Positions 2,897-19,532 of a stretch of 22,122 nucleotides of DNA are shown here, piece by piece. The notes beneath the pieces were generated by a model. That model was not told where the DNA came from and did no database searches. It saw nothing but the letters and a program-made list of their open reading frames with translations. The stretch covers positions 1 to 22,122 of IMG/VR virus record IMGVR_UViG_3300005581_000154. The stretch is one strand, 5' to 3'. The translations under genes and the position numbers were made by a program. This stretch comes from a virus. How positions within the stretch are numbered: position 1 is the stretch's first letter; the number at the start of each line of letters is the position of its first letter.

Positions 2897-3838
2897 GTGG
2901 CCGGCTCATGGTGGCTTGACACGATCGGCAGGATTCCCCTGCTGACGCCGGCTGAAGAGATTGAGCTAGGAACGCTGATCCAGAAAGGCCAGCAGCCGAA
3001 CGCGACGCCACGGGAGAAACGAGCCGGCAGGCGCGCCCGTGATCGGTTTGTGCAGGCCAATCTGCGGCTGGCGGTGAATTATGTCACCAAGCGGTGTCAC
3101 CGGCTTAGCAAGCTCCACGGCGGGGTTGAGGATCTGATACAGGCCGCCAATGAAGGGCTTATCAAAGGGGTGGAGCGGTTTGATCCGGCCAGGGGCTACA
3201 AGTTCAGCACTTATGGATATTGGTGGATTCGGCAGGCGGTCAATACGTTCGCCAACAGTCAACGCAGCATTGCCATTCCCGGCAGCCACAGCCAGCACCT
3301 AGGCCGGTTGGCTGAGATTGAGCGGCGCCTTGCTGGTGAGTTGAGCCGCCCTCCAACACCAGACGAAATTGCCGAAGCGTTGGGATGCAGCGTGGCGGTG
3401 CTTGAGCAGGTGATTGAGAACGGCAGGCCGATTGGCAGCCTGGATCAGGTCGTGAGCGATGATGGCCTAGAGCTGAGCGGATTGGTTGCCACCTACGACC
3501 GCAGCATTGAAGACGAGGAGGAACAGCGTGAACGCTGGCGACAGGCTGAGCAGTTACGCGGACTGATATCCCGGCTGCCGGCGTCGGATCAACGGCTGCT
3601 GTCATTGGCGTGGGGTCTTGATGGTGTGGAGCTCCCCCGCGCTGAGCTGGCCCAGCAGGAGGGGCTGTCAAAGCGGGCGCTGGAGTCAAAGCTGCAGCGA
3701 CTGCAGGCGTCCCTGGCGGCGCACTCGGTGCAGCTGGTGTTGGTTGCGGTGTGCAGGGTGCAGCCATCACCGCGGCCGCGGCAGAAACGCAAGCGCCCCG
3801 GGTGTGTTGGTGAGCAGCTTAGGCTGGTGGTGGTGTGA
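2897..3838 (+). CDS. Sigma-70 family RNA polymerase sigma factor
   Basis: A 313-residue protein that would direct host RNA polymerase to promoters. Region 1.2 is at about 5-30 (WWLDTIGRIPLLTPAEEIEL). Region 2 is at 45-125 with QANLRLAV, EDLIQAANEGLIKGVERFD and YKFSTYGYWWIRQAV. Region 3 is near 135-185. Region 4 is near 215-275. Conserved -10 contacts are partly kept: WW109-110 and Gln113 (E. coli W433/W434/Q437) remain, but the T440-R441 equivalents are Asn116-Thr117. The usual VSRERVRQIE recognition helix of region 4.2 is replaced by LSKRALESKLQRLQ, and a 35-residue basic tail follows. GTG is the only reasonable start after the in-frame TAG at 2867. The overall type resembles cyanobacterial group 2/3 sigma factors; here it probably serves phage promoters. 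Confidence 0.92.
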   Translation: MAGSWWLDTIGRIPLLTPAEEIELGTLIQKGQQPNATPREKRAGRRARDRFVQANLRLAVNYVTKRCHRLSKLHGGVEDLIQAANEGLIKGVERFDPARGYKFSTYGYWWIRQAVNTFANSQRSIAIPGSHSQHLGRLAEIERRLAGELSRPPTPDEIAEALGCSVAVLEQVIENGRPIGSLDQVVSDDGLELSGLVATYDRSIEDEEEQRERWRQAEQLRGLISRLPASDQRLLSLAWGLDGVELPRAELAQQEGLSKRALESKLQRLQASLAAHSVQLVLVAVCRVQPSPRPRQKRKRPGCVGEQLRLVVV

Positions 3839-4307: not shown

Positions 4308-5378
4308 TTAGTAATCCCACCGGACGCGCGGACGACCCGCACGAATACCGAGATGCACAAACCCCTTAGGCGCGCCATAGCCGAGCGAGTGCGGCCAGCT
4401 CTGATCACACCAGTCCTGCACTACCTGCACCGATACGCCTTCAATGAAGAAATCGACAGCGCCGACGCCGGGGGCGTCGTAGAGGTGCTCCGATCCCGAA
4501 GCGCCACCGACTGATCGGTTCACCGCTGGCGGCCTGTATCCGCTGGTGATCACCACCGGCTTGCCGCCAAACTGTGTTCTGCACCGCTCCAGAAATGCTG
4601 CTAGCTCGGCGGCGGTGTCCAGCTGGTGCTGATGATCGAATCGCCGAGCCTCCTGGAATAATGCAAACTCACCAATCCGAATGTGTGGCGTGAGTCGCGC
4701 GGCGAACGGACTGGCGAGGCTGAGCTTGGATGGCTGCTGCTGCGTTTCGATTGCAGCGCCCCCCGTAAATAACCGCACCTCAGCCGCGCGCCTGCGGGTC
4801 AGGCCGGCCAGGGGTTTGCCGTCTGCCTTATCCCACCTCGGCAGCTCTTCCCCGGCAACGGTGTTCGGGTTATCGCCCGCCAGCAGCCTGCGGCGGAGCG
4901 TTGAATCCTGCATTGCCCCAACGCCTACGTTGTAGGTCCAGCTCACCAGCGCCGCTTGCTGCTCAGGGCGAAGCGTGGCGACTCTGGGGATAGCGCGGAC
5001 AATGGCGCTATGGAACCGTTGCGCATCGGCTGTCAGCTGCTCATCGGCCTGGGCCTGAGTGATCGTGTCGCCCTCGCGCACCACCTTGTTGTTGATCGTG
5101 GTGCTGCCCCATCCAATGGTCCAGACACCAGCAGGGCAGCGGTAGACGCTGAGGTGGCACCCCTCGAACTTGCGGATAATCTTGAGCGCTGGTGCCAGCC
5201 ACGCATCAGGCCCCGCCGCCGCCGGACTCCCCGCCGCCCGCCACAGCTCAGTGAACGCCTGGCGTTGCTCATCGCTCAGGGACTGATCCAGTGCGGTTAA
5301 TGCCGCCAGCTGATGCGGCGTTATGGTGCCAACCCTGGCGAGGTGCTCAGCTGCGGCGCGAACGGTGGCGTAGGTCAT
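4308..5378 (-). CDS. Two-domain endolysin: GH24 lysozyme plus M15 peptidase
   Basis: A 356-residue cell-wall hydrolase for host lysis. Residues 1-60 are a helical N-terminal domain without a signal peptide. A T4-lysozyme-type (GH24) domain at about 62-205 carries Glu72, Cys81 and Thr87 in the E-8-D/C-5-T spacing, with TIGWGST and WTYNVGVG. A peptidase M15-type domain at 225-356 carries ITSGYRPPAVN and zinc ligands His298 (SEH), Asp309 (GAVDF) and His342 (VHLGI). The first would cut glycan strands, the second peptide cross-links. It overlaps the upstream gene as ATGA. Export would need a holin, for which the two upstream membrane proteins are candidates. Confidence 0.93.
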   Translation of the reverse strand: MTYATVRAAAEHLARVGTITPHQLAALTALDQSLSDEQRQAFTELWRAAGSPAAAGPDAWLAPALKIIRKFEGCHLSVYRCPAGVWTIGWGSTTINNKVVREGDTITQAQADEQLTADAQRFHSAIVRAIPRVATLRPEQQAALVSWTYNVGVGAMQDSTLRRRLLAGDNPNTVAGEELPRWDKADGKPLAGLTRRRAAEVRLFTGGAAIETQQQPSKLSLASPFAARLTPHIRIGEFALFQEARRFDHQHQLDTAAELAAFLERCRTQFGGKPVVITSGYRPPAVNRSVGGASGSEHLYDAPGVGAVDFFIEGVSVQVVQDWCDQSWPHSLGYGAPKGFVHLGIRAGRPRVRWDY

Positions 5379-10245: not shown

Positions 10246-10694
10246 GGCGCTCCTATTAGTTTTGTTGTGAACTTACGCGGCGGCACTTGCGCGCCAACTG
10301 GTGAGATGCTACTGCCAAGCTCCATTGTGATCTGAGTAAAGCTGCCCGACACTCCAACCACCTCGCCGAGGTAAGACGCGATCAGCGTCTGCCCAGCCTG
10401 CGGAGTGCTGTTGCCCAGGGTGGTGTCAAACTCGTATATCTGCAGCTCTGCCAGGCGGGCTTCGTTGAGCGCCTGCAGCACCACCTCCATCACGTTGGTG
10501 GTGGCTGGCAAGGTGACTGAAATTGAAGATTCCGATTGCACCTCACCAGCGGTGATGCCATCAGCATCAAATGGCTGATATGACCAGGCTGCGCTCTCCC
10601 AGGTAACGCTGGTGTTGACGTAGTAGGACTGCCACCGCTGGTAGGTGGTGTCACCAGAGAAGATGCGCAGGAACTGGGATTGACCGCGAGCCAT
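10233..10694 (-). CDS. Minor tail protein (tip-assembly, gpL/DUF1833-like)
   Basis: A 153-residue beta-rich protein. I take ATG 10694, which overlaps the tape-measure stop as TAATG; the frame extends 35 codons further, but those overlap the tape measure and look non-coding. Near the end it has MELGSSISPVGAQVPPRKFT and GAPCQL, reminiscent of the C-termini of minor tail proteins that connect the tube or tape measure to the hub. Position between tape measure and hub matches lambda M/L. The family assignment is moderate. Confidence 0.72.
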   Translation of the reverse strand: MARGQSQFLRIFSGDTTYQRWQSYYVNTSVTWESAAWSYQPFDADGITAGEVQSESSISVTLPATTNVMEVVLQALNEARLAELQIYEFDTTLGNSTPQAGQTLIASYLGEVVGVSGSFTQITMELGSSISPVGAQVPPRKFTTKLIGAPCQL

Positions 10695-12445
10695 TACCGC
10701 ACCCCCGTGGCGTAGCGCCCTGCGGGTGTGCGCAGGCTGGCGTAGATGCCGTCGGCCGTGGCGCGTGCCACCTTCTCCAGGTCGGCCATGGTTGCCCACT
10801 GCTGGCCGCCCTGCTGCATCACAGGGCCAGTGGTGACATTGATCTGGGCATTGCCGCCGACGAAGCCGCCAGATGCACTGCCGCCGCCCACGAAGCCGCC
10901 ATTGGCGAAGGCGGGAATTGCAGCACCACCGCGAGCGCCGTTGAGGTAGTTCATGGCGAAGGCTGCGGCTTTGCGCTCAGGCACGATGTACTCAGGGCCA
11001 GCCTCACCAACTACGGCAAGCGTTCCCTGGCCGACGTAGCCACCCTGCGCAAACTGGGGAACTTTCAGCGTTGGCAGGGTGGGCAGTTGGGGCCCGCTTA
11101 CCTTGGCTGATAGTGCGTTAGCGCGATTGATTAAAGAATTGATATTGTTAATTGCTTGATTTACGGAGTTAAATACACCGCGCAGTACGCCATTCATTAC
11201 ACCCTTGATAGCGGCAGTCATTCCTACAAAGACAGATCGAACCGCCGTTGCTGCGGTATTTGCCGTTTTGACCACTCCATCCCACAGTCCTGCAAAGAAC
11301 TGACCGACCGGCTTGCCCCAGCTCACCAGCCACCCGGCAAAATCTTGCAGCGGTTTGCGGAACAGGATTGCCATCGCCACCACTGCGGCCACAGCCAGCA
11401 CAGTCCAACCAACGGGGCCGGAGAAGAAGGCGATTAGACCAGGCAGCAGGGTTCCGGTCAGGAAGGTCAGGAAGCCGGTAAATGCGGCACTGATCGCTGC
11501 GATTGCAGGGCCAGCCAGAGCAGCCCAGCCGGCGATGGTGGCGCCGATCTTTAGGCCGGCCAAGACGGGGCCGATGGAAGCAAGAGCAGTAATGGCCGGA
11601 GCCAAGGCAACAAAGCTGATTGCCAGCAAACCAGCGGCAACAATGATTCCTTGCATCGGGCCAGGTAGCGCGTTGAAACCATCAAGCAGCCTTACCAGCG
11701 ACTCAGTTATTGCGGTGATTGACGGAAGCAGCACCACAGCCAGCTTGCCGCCCAACATACCCACCTTGCCTTGCAAGGTCACCATGGCAACTTCGCCCGC
11801 CTTGGCATCCTTGGCGTATTGAGTTGTCATTGCGCCAAACTTGCCGATGGCTTCGCCGCCCATATTCAGCATTGGAATCATATCGGCGCCAGCTCTACCG
11901 AACAGTTGCAGCGCTATTGCGGTTTTTTCAGCTCCGTTAGGCATTGTCTTGAACTTGTTGGATATTTCCAGCATGATCTGATCTGTATCTTTCAGCTTCC
12001 CGTTTGCATCTACTGCGCTGATTCCCATCGACTTCAACGCTTCACCGGCTTGCCCTTGACCGTTCTTCGCTTCCACCAGTCCCTTACTTAATTTAATCAT
12101 TGCCTTGGTAACGCCTTCAACATCAGTGCCGCTGACTTTGGCAGCCTTCGAGAATCTGCTCAACGCTTCGACACTGACCCCTGTCTTCTGGCTCAGATCA
12201 AACATCTTCGCCGCGTTATCCATTGAGTTTTTCGCCAGGGTGATTAGCCCTGCGCCAGTCGCCAGCGGCACCAATGCGCCGAGTGCGCCACCTAGCCCAC
12301 CAGCCGCACCAGCTAGGCCCTTCAGCCCGCCTGACACCCTGGCAGCGGTGCCGCTAAGACCGCCGATGGCACGGCCCAGGGCGTTGACCTTACCCTCGCC
12401 CTCAACGTCGGCTTTGATCTTCAGCAGCGCCTGCATCTGTGCCAT
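10694..12445 (-). CDS. Tail tape measure protein
   Basis: A 583-residue protein that sets tail length and forms the chaperone-coated core of the assembling tail. The N-terminus is Gly/Ala-rich and helical (1-75), followed by a TP901/lambda-type helical region containing QKTGVSVEALSRFSKAAK and ALQLFGRAGADMIPML (about 86-194). A long hydrophobic segment spans 263-362. The C-terminal part has GGYVGQGTLAVVGEAGPEYI (468-487) and repeated GGFVGG. At roughly 0.15 nm per residue it would specify a tail of about 85-90 nm. The start overlaps the chaperone stop as TAATG. Confidence 0.96.
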   Translation of the reverse strand: MAQMQALLKIKADVEGEGKVNALGRAIGGLSGTAARVSGGLKGLAGAAGGLGGALGALVPLATGAGLITLAKNSMDNAAKMFDLSQKTGVSVEALSRFSKAAKVSGTDVEGVTKAMIKLSKGLVEAKNGQGQAGEALKSMGISAVDANGKLKDTDQIMLEISNKFKTMPNGAEKTAIALQLFGRAGADMIPMLNMGGEAIGKFGAMTTQYAKDAKAGEVAMVTLQGKVGMLGGKLAVVLLPSITAITESLVRLLDGFNALPGPMQGIIVAAGLLAISFVALAPAITALASIGPVLAGLKIGATIAGWAALAGPAIAAISAAFTGFLTFLTGTLLPGLIAFFSGPVGWTVLAVAAVVAMAILFRKPLQDFAGWLVSWGKPVGQFFAGLWDGVVKTANTAATAVRSVFVGMTAAIKGVMNGVLRGVFNSVNQAINNINSLINRANALSAKVSGPQLPTLPTLKVPQFAQGGYVGQGTLAVVGEAGPEYIVPERKAAAFAMNYLNGARGGAAIPAFANGGFVGGGSASGGFVGGNAQINVTTGPVMQQGGQQWATMADLEKVARATADGIYASLRTPAGRYATGVR

Positions 12446-12765
12446 TACTTTGCCTCCTTGTTGATCAGGTCGCGTGCGTGCAGCTCCATGATCTGCAGGT
12501 CTTCCATCACGCGGGCCAGATCCTCGGTGATCTGATACAGGCTAGCCATCTGCAACACCACGCCATAATCCAGCCCGATCACACCACTGGCACCGCAGCG
12601 CCATTGCGTCATGCAGCGCAGGAACAGACTCAGCACCTCCATGTGCTCAGGCCAGATGTGGTAGACCTTTGGCGCCAAGATTGCCTCCGGCAAGGTCATG
12701 CCAAAGGCTGCCGCATCAGCAAGCAGCTCTTTGTTGGCGCTGCTGCCATGGAGCAAGTGCTCCAC
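12445..12765 (-). CDS. Tail assembly chaperone, T segment (frameshift product)
   Basis: Read alone from GTG 12765 this is 106 residues (WPEHMEVLSLFLRCMTQW, GVIGLDYGVVLQM, EDLQIMELHARDLI), resembling DUF1799-type chaperones found just before tape measure genes. There is no ribosome binding site. Its frame is exactly the -1 frame of the upstream G gene past a slippery A AAA AAC, so it is more likely the C-terminal part of a GT fusion of about 235 residues in which GTG is read as Val. The fusion would hold the tape measure and recruit tail-tube subunits, as lambda gpGT does. Confidence 0.88.
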   Translation of the reverse strand: MEHLLHGSSANKELLADAAAFGMTLPEAILAPKVYHIWPEHMEVLSLFLRCMTQWRCGASGVIGLDYGVVLQMASLYQITEDLARVMEDLQIMELHARDLINKEAK

Positions 12766-12783
12766 AGCGCCTGTTAGTTTTTT
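12745..12783 (-). other. -1 programmed ribosomal frameshift element (G/GT)
   Basis: On the minus strand, A AAA AAC (12783-12777) fits X XXY YYZ in the G frame, directly before the G stop TAA (12776-12774). An 8-nt spacer follows, then a hairpin: GCTGTGGAGC (12768-12759), loop ACTT, and GCTCCATGGC (12754-12745). That is ten pairs, two of them G-U. Slipping back one base continues as LTGAVEHLL into the T segment without a stop. Confidence 0.87.
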
Positions 12784-13151
12784 GCTTTGGCCTTCGCGTG
12801 CGCGTCGAAGAACGTCTCAACCAGCACATCAGCGACCGTGGCCACCTCTAGCAGCTGGGCCTTGTAGGACTCAGAGAACTCCACCGGCGTGCCGTCAGGG
12901 TTGGTGATGCCTTCCCATCCCTGCAGGATCTCGGCGGCGATCTCGCGGGTGGGGATGCTCTCCAGCGGCTGATCGCGTACTGCTGCGGCCTTCATCGCCT
13001 GGTACTGCAGCTGCACCTCTTCCATCCGGCTCTGGGGCAGCCGGCGGTAGATCGCCTCAAACTGGTGAGTCCGGTACTTGCCGCCGTCTCGCAGCTCCCG
13101 AATGATGATCGGGTGCGTAAACGTTGGCGACTGCTCAAGAACAAAGGCCAT
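12774..13151 (-). CDS. Tail assembly chaperone G
   Basis: A 125-residue protein upstream of the T segment and the tape measure. The fold is mixed (YRTHQFEAIYRRLPQSRMEEVQLQYQ, EIAAEILQGW.G), resembling siphophage G-type chaperones that include a YKAQLLEV...F-type C-terminal helix, with a Lys/Ala tail (HAKAKAKN) at the slippery site. It would coat the tape measure and keep it soluble; the frameshifted GT minority form links it to the tube protein. ATG 13151 lies inside TCCATGGCCT, a one-mismatch variant of the conserved element, adjacent to the upstream TGA. Confidence 0.87.
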   Translation of the reverse strand: MAFVLEQSPTFTHPIIIRELRDGGKYRTHQFEAIYRRLPQSRMEEVQLQYQAMKAAAVRDQPLESIPTREIAAEILQGWEGITNPDGTPVEFSESYKAQLLEVATVADVLVETFFDAHAKAKAKN

Positions 13152-13154
13152 GGA

Positions 13155-14084
13155 TCAAGTCAGCGCAATGGTAAATTCATCATTGCCTGCAGCGGTTGGC
13201 TGAGGCATGAAGGGCAGCTTCAGCATGATGATGCCGTCGTCTTCATCGTATTCTGGGGAGCCCAGGGTGCAGGTCGGCGCCGTAAACGTGATGATGTTCC
13301 CGGCGGTGGTGCCGTGAACCCAGCTGAACTGGCCTGCGGTCTGGGCGCTGGCAGCGCTGAAGTAGTTCTTGGCGGTGATGGTTGGCGCCTCGATTGTGAC
13401 TTCGCCCTCGGGTTTGCGGTCGGTGATCATCACCTGCTGGGTGCAGCCGGCCAGCTGACGGAATGGTGTCTCGTTGGCTAGGTCGAGGCTGAAGGCGCTC
13501 AGGCAGGCTGCGTAGCCATGCACTTGCAGGGTGGCGGTGTTGGCGCTGTTGACCACCACCGGATCAGCCTGGTTGGTGAACGTGGGCGAAGGCTGCGTCT
13601 CGTCGGTTGGCGCGTTGAAGATGCCCGTGAAAGAGAAGCTGATCTTGGGGATCTCGCCAGTTTCCAATGCCATGCTCCAGGTGCCGCGGCAGCCGGTGAC
13701 TTTGTGGCGCACACCATCAGCGAAGAAGTAGAGCGTGACGCCCTTGAAGCTGGCGCTGACTGGGGAGTAGGTGACGCTGGTGGTGGCCACGATAGTTTCA
13801 GCAAACCCGCAGGCCTGCATCAGGGCCGACCACTTGGGCGCCGTCCCTGCTGTACCAGAGCCGGCGATCTCCACATCAAAGGAGACGCTGACCAATCGCT
13901 GGCCCACGACCATCTCAGTGTTACCGAGATAGCCAAGGATCAGCTCGCGGTCCTTCAGCTCCAGCTGCAGCGGCTGCACCTCAAGGGCTGACACCAGCAC
14001 CGCATCAGTCGCTGCGGGTGTGGGGTCAGTGCCGTAGGTGGTTTCAATCTTCGCCAGCAGTAGGCGCTTGCGAGTCAGTGCCAT
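13155..14084 (-). CDS. Major tail protein (tail tube)
   Basis: A 309-residue beta-rich protein starting MALTRKRLLLAKIETTYGTD, the typical opening of siphophage tube proteins. It continues with long strands (VSVSFDVEIAGSGTAG, GVTLYFFADGVRHKV) and a repeated tube-like core near GRCGTWSM-type and KISFSF segments. Its place between tail terminator and chaperone genes is the expected one. It would stack as rings into the tail tube around the tape measure. The ATG at 14084 lies inside the end of the small gene at 14044-14205 (41 nt overlap). Confidence 0.9.
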   Translation of the reverse strand: MALTRKRLLLAKIETTYGTDPTPAATDAVLVSALEVQPLQLELKDRELILGYLGNTEMVVGQRLVSVSFDVEIAGSGTAGTAPKWSALMQACGFAETIVATTSVTYSPVSASFKGVTLYFFADGVRHKVTGCRGTWSMALETGEIPKISFSFTGIFNAPTDETQPSPTFTNQADPVVVNSANTATLQVHGYAACLSAFSLDLANETPFRQLAGCTQQVMITDRKPEGEVTIEAPTITAKNYFSAASAQTAGQFSWVHGTTAGNIITFTAPTCTLGSPEYDEDDGIIMLKLPFMPQPTAAGNDEFTIALT

Positions 14085-17678: not shown

Positions 17679-19532
17679 TCACAGGGTGTTGTTGCCGCGG
17701 CAGAAGGCCTGGGGATGACGCACCGCGTAGTCAATGGCCTGGTGGGCCACAACGCGAATGTTGCCTTCCTTGTCTTCGCTGTAAGGGTTGACCTGCAGAT
17801 CGACGGCGCCGAATAGACCCAGGACAAGCTGGCTCCAAACACCGAAGAACACATCACCGGACTCGACCTGATTGGAGCGCACCACGCCGTAGCTGTTCAC
17901 GGTGCCGCCAGGCTCCAGAACAAACTGAGCGGTGCTGCTGGCCTTCTCGGTGGTCTTGAAGCCGCCGTAGATGGTGGCGTTGGTGACGTAACCCATGGTG
18001 CCGATGTCAGCATCATCTGCCGCCACCTGGGTTTCCATGTCCACCAGCTCCGCGTAGGTGGGCTGGTTGGCGGCAAAATCCTTGGTGTTGATTCCAGTGG
18101 TCAGCTTTAGACCTTCAGGCTGCGAGGCTGAACCCAAGCCGTAAAGAGCAACACGCGCCTGCTCTAGCGCCATCACGGTCACCAGGTCATTGCGAACAAA
18201 CGTCTCAACGTCGATGGAGCTTTGCAGCATCAGCGAACGGGAGAAGCGGGTCCAGGCGCTCATTTCCTTGAGCGTCATCGTGACCTGACCCACGCTGGGC
18301 TCGGACTCGGAAGCAGCCACGCCTTCACCCTTCCAGTAAACCTGGCTGGCGCCGGTCTGCTTGGGGATACCCACGGGGCCGGTTAGTCCAGACAGGATTG
18401 TTACACCCAGTCCGGTCAGGAAATTGCGCTTGCGCAGTAGCTCGATAAACGAACCGGGGCGGGCATCGGTGAAAATTAAATCTCCAGCGGCGGAAGCCTG
18501 GCCAGCGGTCAGAGACCGGCTGAGCACGTCGTTGGGGATTAGCAGGCCCTTGGGGCTCATGCCCATCCGCTGAGCGGCAGCATTGCTGGCCTCGCGCTCA
18601 AAAGCGGCCTCTTCTTGGAATGCCCGCTCGTTGGGGAACAGCTGGGCGCGCATTGCCTTCAGGAAGCTGAAGGAGCGTGCTTCCTTGTCGGTCAGACCAA
18701 TGTCAGCAGATGCGCCGGCGATGGGTTGAGCAGAGGTGGCCTTGGGGGCAGCAGGCTGGCTGGCGCGCTTGCCGATGGCGGCGAGCACTTCCTTCATGGC
18801 TTCAGATTCAGTAGCGCCGCGCTCGATTAGGCCTTGGGCCAGATCGTCAGCGGAGTGAGTGCGGCAAAGGGCGGTGATGCTAGAAACGCGGGCGCGCTCA
18901 TCGGCCGCAGCCTGAGCCCGCACCTCTTCAAGGTTGATGGTGTTTTCCACAGGTTGAATTGGGGGTTGGGTTTGGTCTGCGGCCGCGGCCGCGATTGTGG
19001 TATCGAGCTGGCGCCCGATTCCAACGGAGGCATCAGCAGGGACCGACACCACTGAAACCTCATGGGGTTGCCATGAAGTTGCGACAATGGAGCCGTCGCG
19101 TGTCTGATCGGCGTCGTTGATGCTGTAGCCGACGGAGACATTGCGCAAAATGCCATCGCGGATATCGGCCAGCTTTTCCTCAGCAAACGCTGAGCGGCTG
19201 AACCGAACCGCGACCATTCCGCGCTTTTTCTCGCCGTCAATCCAGCCGCGCTCTACAACGCCAAGCACCTGATCTGGGTTGTGATTCCAGAGCAAGGGCG
19301 CGCCGTCGTTGAGGCGGGTGAGATCAACAGATTCGGAGTCGTGGCTTAGCACCTCGTCTCCAAACCACCGAGCTACTGGGGCCTCGCTGCTGAAGCTGAA
19401 CTCCAGCGATCGTGATTCCTCTCCAATCGCGCTGGCATCAAATGACGCAACGCGACGGAGCGGCTCACGATTGAGGTCTCGAAGTTGCATCGGCGAGGCT
19501 GTATCTAAGTTCAGGCTATGGACGTTGCTCAT
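17679..19532 (-). CDS. Prohead protease-major capsid protein fusion
   Basis: A 617-residue protein combining two usually separate genes. An S78-type prohead protease at about 28-175 has His84 (LLWNHNPD) and Ser133 (RNVSVGYSI) as likely catalytic residues and PHEVSVVSVPADA behind them. A helical delta/scaffold-like linker spans about 200-285. An HK97-fold capsid domain at 286-617 has FTDARPGSFIELLRKRN, IPKQTGASQVYW, EMSAWTRFSRSL and QLVLGLFGAVDLQVNPYSED. The protease would free itself and the linker from the capsid during head maturation. ATG 19532 forms TAATG with the portal stop, but ATG 19490 (Met15) is equally plausible because it would place TCCATAGCCT in the leader. It ends with TGA TAG in series. 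Confidence 0.93.
   Translation of the reverse strand: MSNVHSLNLDTASPMQLRDLNREPLRRVASFDASAIGEESRSLEFSFSSEAPVARWFGDEVLSHDSESVDLTRLNDGAPLLWNHNPDQVLGVVERGWIDGEKKRGMVAVRFSRSAFAEEKLADIRDGILRNVSVGYSINDADQTRDGSIVATSWQPHEVSVVSVPADASVGIGRQLDTTIAAAAADQTQPPIQPVENTINLEEVRAQAAADERARVSSITALCRTHSADDLAQGLIERGATESEAMKEVLAAIGKRASQPAAPKATSAQPIAGASADIGLTDKEARSFSFLKAMRAQLFPNERAFQEEAAFEREASNAAAQRMGMSPKGLLIPNDVLSRSLTAGQASAAGDLIFTDARPGSFIELLRKRNFLTGLGVTILSGLTGPVGIPKQTGASQVYWKGEGVAASESEPSVGQVTMTLKEMSAWTRFSRSLMLQSSIDVETFVRNDLVTVMALEQARVALYGLGSASQPEGLKLTTGINTKDFAANQPTYAELVDMETQVAADDADIGTMGYVTNATIYGGFKTTEKASSTAQFVLEPGGTVNSYGVVRSNQVESGDVFFGVWSQLVLGLFGAVDLQVNPYSEDKEGNIRVVAHQAIDYAVRHPQAFCRGNNTL
19513..19522 (-). repeat. Conserved late-operon element TCCATAGCCT, copy 4
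   Basis: Lies 9 nt after the portal TAA (19532-19534). If the capsid gene starts at 19532 it encodes VHSL in the first codons; if it starts at Met15 (19490) it lies in a 41-nt leader, 22 nt before the ATG, as at the other copies. Confidence 0.75.

Follow-up and report, generated by a model that had tools for sequence, protein, structure and literature searches.

A phage tail gene that ends on a stop codon directly adjoining a slippery heptamer raises two questions: whether the open frame that follows it is reached by a programmed -1 ribosomal frameshift, and whether the touching stop codon takes part. Such a junction, between genes designated G and T, lies in the window, a 22,122-nucleotide stretch of viral DNA (IMG/VR record IMGVR_UViG_3300005581_000154). 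Frameshifting between G and GT is classical in phages, and the main survey is said to be that of Xu and colleagues (2004). Here we describe the junction, its conservation and its surroundings, and we consider it very probable that a programmed -1 ribosomal frameshift yields two tail assembly chaperones from one start.

The G/T junction in the window

Every element of the junction is on the minus strand, within the interval 12745-12783 given by the initial annotation. G (12774..13151) encodes 125 aa and ends ...AKAKN-stop, its 3' end reading GCG AAG GCC AAA GCA AAA AAC TAA. At 12783-12777 the heptamer A_AAA_AAC stands in the slippery frame of G and abuts the stop TAA (12776-12774), as had been proposed. 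The T segment (12445..12777; 110 codons and a stop) is in the -1 frame, and its N-terminus, LTGAVEHL, begins at the slip site. T had been described as DUF1799-like, and its match to DUF1799 (PF08809, E=1.2e-16) scores 61.1 bits, above the curated cut-off of 26. A TGA in the T frame (12817..12819) closes that frame upstream, so it is open only from 12816, 40 nt ahead of the G stop, down to 12445; any productive shift is thereby confined to the final 40 nt of G. The 23 ORFs examined in the window hold six in-frame XXXYYYZ heptamers, and only the one at 12783-12777 is near a stop, which argues that its position is not due to chance. The second AAAAAAC in the window (11928-11922) is out of the slippery frame.

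The gene order is that of a tail module: terminator, tube, G, T and tape measure. The G/T pair is directly downstream of the gene for a tail tube protein (Phage_tube_2, 13155..14084, E=7e-26) and directly upstream of that for a tape measure protein (10694..12445, PHROG 3981, E=1.8e-73), both likewise on the minus strand. This order and the DUF1799 assignment support the G/GT reading of the initial annotation. G itself matches PHROG 569 (E=1.3e-17) and PHROG 313, tail assembly chaperone (E=7e-6), and over its full length Phage_TAC_4 (PF08748), at 17.9 bits, below the curated cut-off of 21.1. A weak structural match to the HK97 chaperone 2ob9 (Z 3.3, rmsd 4.7 over 83 residues) was second in its list. 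A PDB sequence search with the G profile gave no match, and Foldseek against the PDB gave no significant match.

Elsewhere in the window a 617-aa ORF (17679-19532, minus strand) fuses a prohead protease (Peptidase_S78) and the major capsid protein, and a phage lysozyme is fused to a peptidase M15 domain (4308-5378, minus strand). A sigma-70 family factor with regions 1.2, 2 and 3 is encoded at 2897-3838 on the plus strand, opposite the structural genes.

Conservation among relatives of G

Relatives of G with a readable junction numbered 85, from IMG/VR and the named phages S-LBS1, S-CBS3, S-CBS1, Rhodovulum P1, HK639 and HK578. All 85 keep A_AAA_AAC, down to about 30% identity, and in none is its frame lost, a loss that the initial annotation had named as grounds to refute the frameshift. 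The heptamer is adjoined by TAA or TGA in 84 of them, and the C-terminal Asn of G is conserved along with the stop. In the remaining relative (IMGVR_UViG_3300048580_000854, locus L111) the heptamer is intact and is followed by TCC TAG, so that the stop comes one codon (3 nt) later. The codon preceding the heptamer varies (GCA, GTA, GAA, TCA, CAA, AGA) and always ends in A. In the bodies of these G genes A occupies 8.5% of third positions, Lys is encoded by AAA in 17% of cases and Asn by AAC in 82%. Given so few third-position A and so little AAA, NNA-AAA-AAC is expected in about 1% of Lys-Asn pairs; it is seen in all. Scanning genomes with the G alignment turned up no prophage relatives, although the T alignment did find them.

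The first codons of T (LTGAVDHL) start with an invariant Leu at the slip site. In codons 2-8 of 55 relatives, the minority bases at -1 codon positions 1, 2 and 3 number 15, 22 and 133. Since variation is almost confined to third positions of the -1 frame, this first stretch is translated in that frame.

These patterns bear on the other ways in which two such frames might come about. T could be a separate gene with an internal start, such as the GTG at 12765, and no fusion made; ORF callers do start T internally, as in S-CBS3 gp13 and S-LBS1 A20. That GTG (codon 5) is the only frequent start, yet it is present in just 26 of 55 relatives, no start is conserved in the first 17 codons and the coding constraint begins upstream, at the slip site, all of which makes an independent T very unlikely. 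Slippage of RNA polymerase on the A6 run inside the heptamer might also generate the fusion, but six A are short for this, and homologues carrying GGGAAAC lack such a run and still obey the XXXYYYZ rule; we regard transcriptional slippage as equally improbable. An indel introduced by sequencing or assembly, splitting one gene, has practically no chance of being the explanation, given the same split in about 250 loci and isolate genomes that were assembled separately.

RNA structure downstream of the heptamer

The initial annotation placed an 8-nt spacer and a 10-bp hairpin after the heptamer. The hairpin holds as a prediction; it is one of two folds of nearly equal stability. After the spacer UAACAGGC (12776-12769), the hairpin GCUGUGGAGC-ACUU-GCUCCAUGGC (12745..12768) closes a 4-nt loop, with a fold z of -2.36 (5 of 200 shuffles). 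The alternative is a bulged stem of 13 bp, GGCGCUGUGGAGC/GCUCC...CAGCGCC (12736..12771), which begins 5 nt past the heptamer. When the 42-50 nt that follow the heptamer are folded, this stem has the lowest energy (-22.9 kcal/mol), and one in 200 codon-preserving shuffles is as stable. The predicted minimum changes with the length folded: the long stem at 42-50 nt, the 10-bp hairpin at 54-66 nt and the long stem again at 70 nt. Relatives favour a longer stem, its base being a GCGCYGU stretch that begins 5-6 nt past the heptamer and its 3' arms being differently spaced by clade.

Over 56 junctions the mean z is -2.1 against codon-preserving shuffles. Along T the enrichment is restricted to codons 1-17 (mean z -2.21, 85% below -1.5), other windows giving -0.5 to +0.3. 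In a set of 21 sequences 82% of cells of the stem are paired, versus at most 48% when it is slid, and in three pairs both partners have changed, one of these changes being from C-G to G-C. This covariation is modest, with 6-18 of 500 shuffles reaching the observed values and a 3' arm that shifts between clades. RNAalifold returned no consensus structure on alignment A2, which we attribute to the offset of the 3' arms, and an Rfam search of the window gave no match. The loci L113, L118 and L111 are without a notably stable stem.

Outside the cyanophage clade the stem is unsupported as a family-wide feature: 50-nt nested folds of proteobacterial relatives gave no enrichment (mean z -0.3 and -0.6). 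An upstream Shine-Dalgarno stimulator was likewise not enriched in the cyanophage or the proteobacterial sets. Stimulatory structures are common at frameshift sites, not universal, and the predicted downstream structure would be one of them.

Stop contact across the DUF1799 family

A search of GTDB genomes and IMG/VR with the T domain only gave 160 further scorable loci, mostly proteobacterial. A heptamer touches the G stop in 158 of them (108 AAAAAAC and 50 GGGAAAC). Since many of the loci are related, the cases cannot be taken as independent, but those from GTDB come from about two dozen bacterial genera. Exchange of AAAAAAC and GGGAAAC keeps the two-tRNA slip rule and breaks the A run. The exceptions are Pseudomonas syringae GAW0119 (L162), where GGGAAAC is followed by a stop 9 nt downstream, and a Fibrobacter MAG (L181), which reads GCA AAG CCC TAA, without a heptamer and with a possible A_AAG tetramer. 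Among hand-picked distant DUF1799 phages A_AAA_AAC or G_GGA_AAC touches the stop in all except Klebsiella phage NewHawk (L049). There the end of G (1010) reads CAA AAG CAC TAA, without a heptamer, and a tetramer slip on A_AAG is possible one codon before the stop.

The codons read after a slip are biased. Of 169 first -1 codons 168 are CTR, versus 54% elsewhere. Where the second -1 codon is Arg it is AGR in 34 of 34, versus 28 of 339 (8%) in the same genes, a count that is partly conditional because it comes nearly all from adjacent-stop loci (2 of the 160 loci are excluded, neither with a CGN Arg there). This codon choice points to selection for the stop itself. Ile after CTR, in the junctions L141-L300, is ATA in 38 of 60 cases versus 49 of 566 elsewhere, many of the loci being closely related; in 32 cases ATA yields the tandem stops TGA-TAG or TAA-TAG.

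Phages lambda and HK97 have a stop 15 nt past the shift site (the HK97 site was read by eye), so stop contact is a trait of this family and not a general rule. The loci L111 and L162 show that the contact can be dispensed with. The suggestion of the initial annotation that the adjacent stop may matter has thus gained comparative support from contact in 84 of 85 and 158 of 160 loci and from codon choice.

Proposed mechanism and the role of the stop codon

The layout, the frame, conservation throughout the family, the coding constraint from the first -1 codon onward and the local structure lead us to infer the following events. Most ribosomes would decode AAA-AAC and end at the touching UAA, producing G. 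A minority would slip back by one base, tRNA-Lys re-pairing to AAA and tRNA-Asn to AAA, and would then read CUA and continue through T to give a G-T fusion. In the cyanophage clade the stem about 5-8 nt downstream is the likely stimulator, whichever of the two predicted folds would be the active one. By analogy with lambda, G would be a chaperone coating the tape measure protein, and recruitment of the tail tube protein would fall to the T domain. In E. coli, A_AAA_AAC counts as a weak heptamer (PMC4066793), which speaks against the frameshift, though Synechococcus is the probable host here.

Why the stop should touch the heptamer can be read in two ways. The contact may serve only to end G exactly at ...(K/G)N, without a tail from the T region, the stop having no effect on slippage. 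The conserved C-terminal Asn fits this, early termination avoids overlapping coding frames and the identical codon bias would arise; at the same time, weak N=C heptamers throughout the family, with no evident stimulator outside the cyanophage clade, are left unexplained, and lambda and HK97 tolerate five extra codons. We judge this account about equally likely to be right or wrong. The stop may instead be a working part of the signal. With the stop in the A site and tRNA-Asn in the P site, a pause would give time for a -1 slip before the release factor acts, and the release-factor level would tune G:GT. On this view heptamer and stop would form the ancestral signal, to which the stem of the cyanophages was added as a stimulator. 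Contact in so many loci and bacterial genera and the AGR and CTR preferences agree with a working role, as do proteobacterial relatives that have weak heptamers yet neither stem nor Shine-Dalgarno enrichment; furthermore, in pea enation mosaic virus a stop codon close by has a strong influence on -1 shifting (PMC5009743). Against it, the natural variants L111 (stop +3 nt) and L162 (+9 nt) keep the heptamer, the stop of lambda and HK97 is 15 nt away, a tandem slip before translocation requires no stop and the selection for the stop could concern only where G ends. A working role for the stop is possible, and we lean somewhat against it.

For the proteobacterial relatives either a low frameshift efficiency is wanted or the waiting stop adds to slippage; in lambda the G:GT ratio is about 30:1 (PMC5009743). 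More tentatively still, and rather unlikely as a whole, DUF1799 chaperones may carry heptamer and stop as a single fixed unit, X_XXA_AAC-URA, whose stop codon, while it waits, would stimulate slippage on weak heptamers and couple G:GT to release factor activity, the cyanophage stem being a later addition.

Comparison with known systems

The site is an unannotated example of the ordinary phage G/GT frameshift, with an unusually tight and conserved stop contact. As in lambda gpG/gpGT, the -1 shift is near the end of a chaperone gene that immediately precedes the tape measure gene, and the fusion would be the minority product. Unlike the site here, the lambda heptamer is GGGAAAG and lies 15 nt before the G stop instead of 0 nt; T is here a DUF1799 protein. 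The nearest isolates are the Synechococcus phages S-LBS1, S-CBS3 and S-CBS1, which share A_AAA_AAC-TGA, the stem and an open -1 T frame but carry no frameshift annotation. In S-CBS3 and S-LBS1 the layout is the same, and T is annotated separately or truncated; in S-LBS1 it is cut to a short internal ORF, and the S-LBS1 paper makes no mention of a frameshift (PMC6157547). The G gene of S-LBS1 (SLBS1_A18, L043) is listed as ABC transporter ATPase (FepC), an annotation that is evidently wrong.

Escherichia phage LL5, a T1-like phage with a DUF1799 T, also has A_AAA_AAC touching TAA and T in the -1 frame, and this relative is annotated as a frameshift product. In proteobacterial relatives as a group, unlike here, no comparable stem was found. 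Burkholderia phage KL1 gp18/gp19 has a proposed -1 shift at GGGAAAC immediately upstream of a TGA stop (PMC3483164), the difference being a heptamer with X = G. For gp12/gp13 of Acinetobacter phage vB_AbaS_Loki, which has a different host, the contact of the shift site with the stop is stated in a passage that contains no comparative or structural analysis (PMC5313236). AAAAAAC is also reported in the chaperone of phiCbK (PMC3556154) and in that of the archaeal virus HCTV-2 (PMC5009743). No paper treating DUF1799 together with a frameshift was found in the literature searched, mostly without subscription journals, and the family contact rule may already have been noted elsewhere.

The reading presented here mends the annotation for one clade of siphophages of cyanobacteria, where T is listed as a separate or truncated ORF. 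It also brings together about 250 loci, in phages and prophages of cyanobacteria and proteobacteria, at which a weak heptamer touches the stop and codon choice is biased towards preserving it. With its exceptions, this is a natural set for asking whether -1 frameshifting in bacteria is tuned by stop codons and release factors.
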